Source of the DNA: Sipunculus nudus | Taxonomy: Eukaryota > Annelida > Sipuncula > Golfingiida > Sipunculidae | NCBI GenBank assembly: GCA_026874595.1 | Contig: CM049317.1 | Coordinates: 76,513,891 to 76,577,890 of the forward strand | Direction of reading: 5' to 3' | DNA length: 64,000 nucleotides | In this document: positions 16,201 through 36,904 of the stretch, one piece after another | How positions within the stretch are numbered: the first letter of the stretch is position 1 | How the letters are laid out: every line of letters starts with the position of its first letter | Position numbers and translations under genes: made by a program | Notes under the pieces: model-generated | The model's input: the letters and a program-made list of their open reading frames with translations, nothing else | Database searches by the model: none | What the model was told of the DNA's origin: nothing

Positions 16201-19200
16201 ATCTCCCTGTTAACAATTTTCACAAGATAGTATTTGGTAAAATATCACTCAGTAATATCACTCAGTCCTGTCCTTGTATTTCCTGTGTTCCTATATTAAA
16301 CACAGATAAATATCCTGTGTTGTTTGGTTTTTGGCTGACCGGTATGTGGAGGGTATTTGTCCATGTGTTGTTTGGTTTTCAGGCTTTTGGCTGACCACTT
16401 AGTGGAGGGTATTTGTCCATGTGTTGTTTGGTTTTCAGGTTTTTGGCTGACCGCTTTGTGGAGGGTATTTGTCCATGTGTTGTTTGGTTTTCAGGCTTTT
16501 GGCTGACCGCTTAGTGGAGGGTATTTGTCCATGTGTTGTTTGGTTTTCAGGCTTTTGGCTGACCGCTTAGTGGAGGGTATTTGTCCATGTGTTGTTTGGT
16601 TTTCAGGTTTTTGGCTGACCGCTTTGTGGAGGGTATTTGTCCATTTTGCTCGTATGAGGATGCTCGTGGTGACCAGTGTGACCTTTGTGGTAAACTCATC
16701 AATGCCATCGAGTTGAAGCAGCCCAGGTGTAAAGTGTGCAGTCAGACTCCTGTAGTCAAGAGCTCCCAGCATCTCTTCTTAGATCTACAAAAGGTAATTG
16801 AAAAATAGTTACAGTTTATCATCAGAATGTTATAATTAACTATGAAAACATTGGATGCCTTTACATTACGTTTACAAAGTTTAAGAATTTTAGCCAAGAA
16901 AGTTGTGAAAATATACTTACTACATCAAGCTACAGTATGTTGGGCATTCTGTCTGGTGGACAACATGATTATAGTGTACAATTACCATCCAGGCTCAGTT
17001 ATCACCAGAGGAAAAGGACAAATTAGCCAGAAATTTTCTTCAACATAAAATGAAAATATGGAACCCTGGAAACAGTTGCAAAAGAACTGAATTAACATGG
17101 TTTTATGTGATAACTGTCGGAACTCTTTATAAAGTAAAATAGCCATCTAGCGGGGAAAGGAAAAACAAACGGAAGTAGCTCTCGTGAAGGGAGGAGAGAA
17201 GGGACGGGACACAGAAGCATATGGCCTTCCCAGAGGTGGGAAGACATAGCAAAAGTTGACGGACGACTGAGGACGACCTGGACGACATTGGACTGACGCC
17301 GCTACTAGGTAAGAAGTTACAAACTAACAGAAGCTGCTGTTGCGTGAGTAGAATTGAATTTCTCAGACTTTTCATTATGGACTGACCAATATAATTATAG
17401 ATGTATGATATTATAAATTAAACAGCAATCAAATTTAGTTTAGTAGTTAAGTATTTTAACATTTCAGATTTACTTGCTGGCTATGACTTTTGTCTGATTG
17501 GAAGTTGCATTTTCAGCAAAATTAAAACTTATAAACATGCCACTTTCCTTAACTTTATAACTTCTTTCATGGTTGTATGACTTGGATGCTCTGCTGATCA
17601 ACAACACTCATGAATCACTATATTGAATTCCAGTTGGAGCCCCTCCTGACTAAACATCTTGACAAAGAATTTGAGAAGGGTCAGTGGAGTTCAAATGCCA
17701 AGGTCATAACAAGGTCATGGATCAGAGATGGTCTGAAACAGAGGTGTATCAGCAGAGACCTCAAGTGGGGAACACCAGTACCACTAGAGGGCTACACTGA
17801 TAAGGTGTGTGATATGCTGCATTCGCTAACTCTGGGTAATATGGAAAATACAAGTTGACAAGTAGAAAGTAGTATTTCAGGTGTTTTACGTGTGGTATGA
17901 TGTTGTTTATCTTTGTTTACAGGTGTTTTACGTGTGGTATGATGTTGTTTATCTTTGTTTACAGGTGGTTTACATGTGGTATAATGTTGTTTATCTTTGT
18001 TTACAGGTGTTTTACGTGTGGTATGATGTTGTTTATCTTTGTTTACAGGTGGTTTACATGTGGTATAATGTTGTTTATCTTTGTTTACAGGTGTTTTACG
18101 TGTGGTATGATGTTGTTTATCTTTGTTTACAGGTGGTTTACATGTGGTATAATGTTGTTTATCTTTGTTTACAGGTGTTTTACGTGTGGTATGATGTTGT
18201 TTATCTTTGTTTACAGGTGGTTTACATGTGGTATAATGTTGTTTATCTTTGTTTACAGGTGTTTTACGTGTGGTATGATGTTGTTTATCTTTGTTTACAG
18301 GTGGTTTACATGTGGTATAATGTTGTTTATCTTTGTTTACAGGTGTTTTACGTGTGGTATGATGTTGTTTATCTTTGTTTACAGGTGGTTTTTATGTATG
18401 GTATAACGTTGTTTATCTTTGTTTTCAGGTGTTTTATGTGTGGTATGATGCACCTATTGGTTACATTTCTATCACTGCCAACTACACCGAGGACTGGAAG
18501 AAATGGTGGTTTAACCCAGATCAGGTAAATGGCTTAGTAACAAGTCACATTGTACTTCATAGGGAATGGATGTTACATAGGGGTTAATATAATTAAAGTA
18601 CAGTGGAACCCCGCCTTGCGACCACCTCACAATTGCGACCACCCCACAATTACGACCATTTTGCTTGGTCCCGAATTTTTTTTTAGTTTATTTATGTTTA
18701 AAAATGACTCAAAATTACGACCACCCCTGAATTCAGAATTACGACCAAATTTCCTGGCCCAAGCGTCAATGCGACCCCGCTAATGCGACCACCGCCGAGA
18801 AGTACTGAAACAACATTTGTCACGAGTCAATGGCTGCGTCTTGTCACAGGCGCCTTAACGAAAGATCAAAGCGGGTAACAAGGTTTCTTAACCCGAGTGT
18901 TAATCTGGTTCGGCATATATTCCCGACTCGGTGTCTTCGCTGAGACTCGTTGAGGTGTAGGTTATAGATCAAAGAGGGTAACTATCGGCCTGATTACTTA
19001 ATGAGCCGGTCTGACCTGGGGTCAGATGCTAATTACTTCTCACTGATCACCTGTATTACAGCTATCCTAAGTGTGGGGCTGCGGGCTTAATATTTCAACT
19101 CATCACACATTGTTCGATCCTCATTGGTAAAATTAACGACCTAGTTAATCCTAAAGTGTTCATACCTTACTGACACTGAGTATTGAGCAGTCAGTAAAAT

Positions 19201-36904: not shown

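Follow-up and report, generated by a model that had tools for sequence, protein, structure and literature searches.

In the 64-kb window analysed here (C12:76513891-76577890, the whole stretch of DNA presented, from an assembly of 1.43 Gb in 153 contigs), four minisatellites lie at exon edges of MARS1, and each repeats a splice site together with the exon bases that adjoin it; the same anatomy recurs at exon edges of other genes, in excess over the general density of arrays. The four arrays are probably mirages, that is, minisatellites that go back to a short tandem duplication reaching from an exon into the neighbouring intron.

Arrays at the exon edges of MARS1 and their decoy splice sites

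MARS1 lies on the + strand, and 16 exons separated by 15 GT-AG introns were modelled at 14321..36904, with human MARS1 serving as the guide and with splice sites set by eye. The modelled exons form a single open frame of 742 codons up to the stop at 36904, in which Pfam recognised tRNA-synt_1g (E = 9e-149), Anticodon_3 and two WHEP domains. Upstream of the model, 2013-2117 is an N-terminal exon, and weaker candidates follow as far as 13803. The gene, the four arrays (A1-A4) and the exons whose edges they contain are as follows:

14321..36904, + strand, MARS1, cytosolic methionyl-tRNA synthetase, catalytic domain to stop codon (gene model, Pfam)
16329..16644, + strand, array A1, 56-bp unit, 5.6 copies, 95% matches (TRF)
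16607..16793, + strand, exon 4, acceptor within A1 (gene model)
17878..18450, + strand, array A2, 42-bp unit, 13.6 copies, 92% matches (TRF)
18429..18524, + strand, exon 6, acceptor within A2 (gene model)
20637..20770, + strand, exon 8, donor within A3 (gene model)
20768..24652, + strand, array A3, 42/45-bp unit CAG|GTGAG..., about 91 copies, 85% matches (TRF)
35122..35536, + strand, array A4, 32-bp unit, 13.1 copies, 83% matches (TRF)
35523..35777, + strand, exon 15, end of WHEP 1, linker and start of WHEP 2, acceptor within A4 (gene model, Pfam)

TRF thus recovered every array that the earlier note had described, with units of 56, 42, 42/45 and 32 bp. By the gene model, the exon edges inside them are acceptors before 16607, 18429 and 35523 and a donor after 20770; the note's array ends at 16606, 18428 and 35522 coincide with modelled edges, and its tally of three arrays copying acceptors and one copying a donor agrees with the model. 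The periodicity continues past the edge into the exon, for 38, 22 and 14 nt in A1, A2 and A4 and for 3 nt in A3. The A1 unit comprises 18 nt of intron with the AG acceptor and 38 nt of exon, and straddles the acceptor of exon 16607-16793, while A2 straddles that of exon 18429-18524, has a unit that includes 22 exonic nt and contains 14 acceptor copies in alternating A and B unit variants, the last spacing being 44. A3 begins at the donor of exon 20637-20770, takes only 3 nt (CAG) of its unit from the exon, shows higher-order periods and occupies most of a 4155-bp intron; A4 straddles the acceptor of exon 35523-35777, and its unit includes 14 exonic nt. All four units therefore contain a splice site and adjoining exon bases, the copies of each array all spread into the intron, and the boundary straddled is in 4/4 arrays the functional one, as in mirages. 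Individual copies have lost the site: the outermost one of A1 (partial, its CAG lost), three copies close to A3's distal end, and, in A4, five that lack the AG, the two outermost among them. The functional copies of A2 and of A4 are unlike the copies next to them, and the left flank of A2 is unrelated to its unit.

The four units are mutually unrelated, as had been claimed, in that none of the six pairs was exceptional against 200 shuffles and the closest pairs were reached by 23 and 26 of the 200. A common strand asymmetry was rejected, since A1-A3 show a strong G-over-C skew (0.37 to 0.56) and A4 shows none (-0.03); R-loops are consequently not uniformly marked and are only one candidate among possible causes. 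Within 34843-36904, an intron splits each of the two WHEP domains of MARS1 at an identical position (TAEVTxQ|GxxVRQLK), as would follow from a joint duplication of domain and intron, and the first of these two introns is the site of A4.

The copies abutting the exons preserve the MARS1 frame. All the upstream acceptor copies tested led to a premature stop (25/25: 4 in A1, 13 in A2 and 8 of the 12 in A4, including one that lacks an AG), as did 83/84 decoy donors of A3, the sole in-frame decoy, apparently the nearest, adding 14 codons to an otherwise full-length product. Since 108/109 decoys tested would truncate MARS1, the arrays look like tolerated by-products and not like devices, and an alternative-splicing device was rejected on this ground. 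The wider idea that the arrays are functional, as reserves of splice sites through which splicing is regulated or buffered, or as a source of protein repeats, draws on the many copies that retain good sites, on the one full-length decoy of the 84 and on the donor core of A3 (-2 to +3), whose conservation averages 98.7% and lies above the mean. Many other A3 columns stand at 100%, however, the nine donor columns as a set show no higher conservation than the remaining columns (93.3% vs 92.7%, Mann-Whitney P = 1.0), some copies have lost their site, and the premature stops tell directly against such a role, which we consider very improbable. The arrays behave like an almost neutral lengthening of introns, past which splicing must see, and A3 raises the question of how splicing selects one among about 85 near-identical donors.

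Two further arrays lie downstream in the window. At 39803-41657, a 37-bp array of 50 copies, 98% alike, is far more uniform than A1-A4; an exon edge was looked for there and not found, and the array was rejected as a further mirage. At 53622-54557, a 32-bp array of 29 copies, whose unit includes CTGCAG|GATGATG, stands at the exon-like end (...LENNLALKILHSTLQEEDVNF, followed by a stop) of a possible second gene, and may be a further boundary array or may have grown across the stop codon. Neither Pfam (9 ORFs outside MARS1) nor PDB gave this possible gene a name, and on that ground the array was not accepted as a further mirage.

Junction arrays elsewhere in the genome

If founding duplications land randomly and are kept unless wholly exonic, the probability that all four arrays straddle a junction is about 4e-5, and with three two-copy families included, the probability that at least 4 of 7 straddle is about 8e-4; both values are post hoc, the window having been chosen for this pattern, and both leave out three interior MARS1 arrays of at least three copies:

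4354-5643, interior array, 347 bp, 3.8 copies
6057-7185, interior array, 280 bp, 4.0 copies
20553-20617, interior array, 18 bp, 3.6 copies, ending 19 nt before an acceptor

The 347- and 280-bp arrays lie between exons 2013-2117 and 10572-10628, the latter weakly matched; a random stretch of the genome (L016) holds 277-280-bp arrays that resemble them. Among MARS1 arrays of at least three copies, the junctional share is 4/7 at periods of at least 18 bp and 4/4 at periods of 20-100 bp.

A separate count came from 80 exon windows of other genes in the same genome, taken by HMM rank and blind to repeats, with 150 nt of flank each. They comprised the 60 top-ranked of 75 myosin-head rows and 20 host CCT rows, the CCT rows set aside being those on bacterial contigs, lower-ranked host rows and two host rows longer than 1 kb (C11:3985543 and C3:73093755); all 126 kinesin rows were left out before counting. 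Contigs C61-C91 of this assembly (G000; L001-L008) are megabase contigs on which lie several near-identical MetRS and chaperonin genes of bacterial type, which suggests several strains of one associated bacterium; the MetRS of the bacterial-looking contig C61 had two distant relatives in GTDB, at 43% and 28% identity. With TRF thresholds of period at least 20, at least 1.9 copies and score at least 50, nine arrays were found in the 80 windows, and six of the nine straddle an exon edge, as judged by eye from TRF coordinates and sequence:

L058, donor CAG|GTCAGT, 36 bp x 4.7
L067, donor CAG|GTAAAT, 29 bp x 3.1, the junction lying beyond the Pfam match and placed by reading of the frame
L069, donor AAGAG|GTACAC, 83 bp x 1.9
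L102, donor CACAG|GTACAT, 61 bp x 3.0
L103, donor GAG|GTAGGG, 35 bp x 2.0
L090, acceptor TTTCAG|GTATAAC, 60 bp x 2.8
L056, non-straddling, 22 bp x 2.0
L111, non-straddling, two arrays (57 and 48 bp)

All six straddled exons encode myosin head or CCT (Pfam), and L069 and L103 are merely duplications of about two copies. Both kinds of boundary are used, with five donors and one acceptor here against one donor and three acceptors in MARS1. From the density of arrays in random DNA (29 arrays with a period of 20-100 bp and at least 1.9 copies in 20 random 10-kb stretches, 200 kb in all), 1.1 straddling arrays were expected at 160 edges and 6 were seen (Poisson P = 0.001), an expectation that assumes 45-bp founders and takes the HMM edges as 160 true junctions; at 2.5 or more copies, 4 were seen vs 0.7 expected (P = 0.007). 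Given the presence of the arrays in the windows, the probability that at least 6 of 9 straddle is 0.006. The random stretches themselves contain a 46-bp array that starts from the donor of a bromodomain exon (L029, Pfam E = 5e-11) and a 41-bp array that likewise starts from a donor, here that of a putative first exon (L025). Two of the 20 random stretches consist largely or wholly of satellite (L013:2839-10000, 61 bp x 117; L028:1-10000, 376 bp x 27).

A motif search of the whole genome gave a parallel result for donors. The donor consensus CAGGTAAGT in triplicate, at 20-50 bp spacing, occurs 329 times and the reversed motif 132 times, and among the matches listed, distinct arrays on C1-C7 numbered 18 for the donor triple vs 4 for the reversed one, the former counted by eye over about a hundred of the 329 (ending at C7:75.04 Mb) and the latter over the C1-C7 places among about a hundred of the 132 (reaching C12). 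Single sites number 15,332 for the donor consensus vs 12,946 for its reverse, and since this ratio is just 1.18, motif abundance alone does not account for the excess of triples (P = 0.007). The first 100 donor-consensus sites listed on C1 (9.1 Mb) fall into 74 loci, three of which are arrays. At G000:C1:2459619-2461794, an array with 62-bp spacing carries the perfect donor CAGGTAAGT about 20 times.

Splice motifs were not enriched over shuffles as a class in 13 arrays (period 20-100, at least 3 copies, score at least 100) from 22 stretches, 20 taken at random and 2 lying upstream of the window (Fisher chi-square, 26 df: donors 27.1, acceptors 25.6), a weak test in which neither motif reaches P < 0.05 even for A1 and A4. 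The proposition that all minisatellites here stem from junctions was rejected on the absence of class-wide enrichment in these general arrays, and junctions look like favoured, not sole, birthplaces of arrays. The shared cause that the earlier note had postulated thus gains support from the exon windows and the donor triples; the 13 general arrays, as a class, count against it.

Origin of the arrays

As we reconstruct the process, a short tandem duplication across an exon edge would have founded each array, splicing would have continued with the copy adjoining the intact exon, and the remaining copies, now intronic and near neutral, would have multiplied by slippage or unequal exchange, always towards the intron; the alternating variants of A2 and the higher-order periods of A3 are what such slippage or exchange might leave. 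Founding was perhaps microhomology-mediated, which would fit A1 and A3, while A2 would need an extra step, given its 13.6 copies and its unrelated left flank. Duplications in intron interiors should be at least as harmless, so survivorship alone predicts no junction excess; because it is insufficient, either a mutational bias to exon edges or a longer persistence of exon-anchored arrays is needed. We tentatively favour the mutational bias, which would owe nothing to selection for arrays and might arise from breaks, polymerase pausing or R-loops at the borders, with CAG/AGGT microhomology helping. Why junctions are favoured, including any splicing- or transcription-linked process, is something that we infer. 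The three non-straddling arrays among the nine near exons and the three interior arrays of MARS1 count against such a bias.

Under the persistence alternative, births would be even and exon-anchored arrays would outlast others or stay recognisable, purifying selection keeping one template unit. It would explain the junction excess without any special mutational process, and the functional copies of A2 and A4 do differ from their neighbours; the distal copies, unconstrained as they are, nevertheless remain 83-95% alike, pointing to youth over long survival, and we think this account improbable. Somewhat less improbable, and still unlikely, is chance combined with ascertainment, by which a minisatellite-rich genome starts arrays anywhere in non-coding DNA and a window with four hits was picked out. 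The 29 arrays in 200 kb of random stretches, the 13 general arrays and the interior arrays of MARS1 are in keeping with this, but straddling arrays in the blind exon windows outnumber the density expectation, and the donor triple is commoner than its reverse. An introner-like mobile element that inserted at proto-splice sites and multiplied afterwards would place units near AG|GT, where they do begin; the element was rejected because the A1-A4 units are unrelated to each other, and they also lack a strong match in the examined loci and contain the host exon's own sequence, which leaves this origin barely credible. We assign an equally slight chance to collapse or false expansion in assembly. 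According to PMC3087553, a draft assembly rendered one lancelet mirage wrongly, and the copy numbers of the 3.9-kb array may be wrong, but the copies differ from each other and have higher-order structure, the contig is 78.5 Mb long, and the pattern recurs in other genes.

A wider conjecture, which we hold tentatively and with less than even confidence, is that exon-intron junctions are preferred birthplaces of minisatellites in molluscs as well as in lancelets, through mutation tied to transcription or splicing, genome-wide, lengthening introns and able to seed new ones. If junction-born arrays are indeed genome-wide, the genome would be a live record of intron growth.

Comparison with known systems

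The earlier note knew of no named system like this; the mirages of lancelets have the same structure. PMC3087553 describes mirages in the lancelet globin genes BflGb6 and BflGb9, traces the term to the Adh3 study of Canestro et al. (2002), where units measure 10-72 bp and show somatic instability, states that mirages leave regular splicing undisturbed, and proposes a route to intron gain; PMC3902484 adds PGBD5 and TnC to the lancelet genes with mirages. In these lancelet genes, as in MARS1, a minisatellite-like unit straddles the exon-intron boundary at acceptors and donors alike, many copies carry AG/GT signals, and several arrays occur per gene, with periods (10-72 bp in Adh3, 60-160 bp in the remaining genes) that overlap those of the MARS1 arrays. 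A3, with about 91 copies and 3.9 kb, is far longer than the lancelet mirages described there. Somatic instability and normal splicing are reported for lancelets, and the single open frame of the modelled MARS1 exons is consistent with a normal mRNA; the junction excess was measured here in a sample of exons, and the MARS1 arrays were seen in one assembly. Birth of an intron from a duplication across an intron-exon boundary, as related for potato RdRp in PMC4974935, likewise copies splice signals by a boundary-crossing tandem duplication; what MARS1 displays is, by contrast, the lengthening of existing introns, with no new intron shown.

The host of the MARS1 arrays does not appear to be a lancelet, as judged by the PDB matches of a muscle-myosin exon and by the genome size of 1.43 Gb. 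The eight best PDB sequences for this exon (3i5f, 2os8, 2ec6, 1dfk and four others) scored 264-271 bits, followed by human Myosin-7 at 260.5. These eight myosins are from squid and scallop, and on this comparison the host looks molluscan. No molluscan mirage was recognised in the literature searched, which does not prove their absence from print.

Introners, which are intron-forming mobile elements, also expand sequence within introns beside AG|GT. They would bring similar sequence to many introns, of which the examined loci gave no sign in the form of a strong unit match, and the MARS1 units differ from them in being unrelated to each other and built from the local exon edge. With ordinary intronic minisatellites the arrays share their period range, copy variation and higher-order repeats, but here the unit straddles the exon edge beyond what array density predicts. 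Tandem duplication at splice sites as a feeder of intron growth and gain is an old idea that can now be counted in a chromosome-scale genome. Mirages had until now been known as a peculiarity of lancelet genes, and their repeated occurrence in an apparent mollusc, exceeding expectation at the junctions of the blind sample, suggests either an old, animal-wide mutational weakness of exon edges or independent origins. Collectively, the MARS1 arrays appear to be of this known kind, in an apparently new phylum and with quantitative signs of a junction bias.
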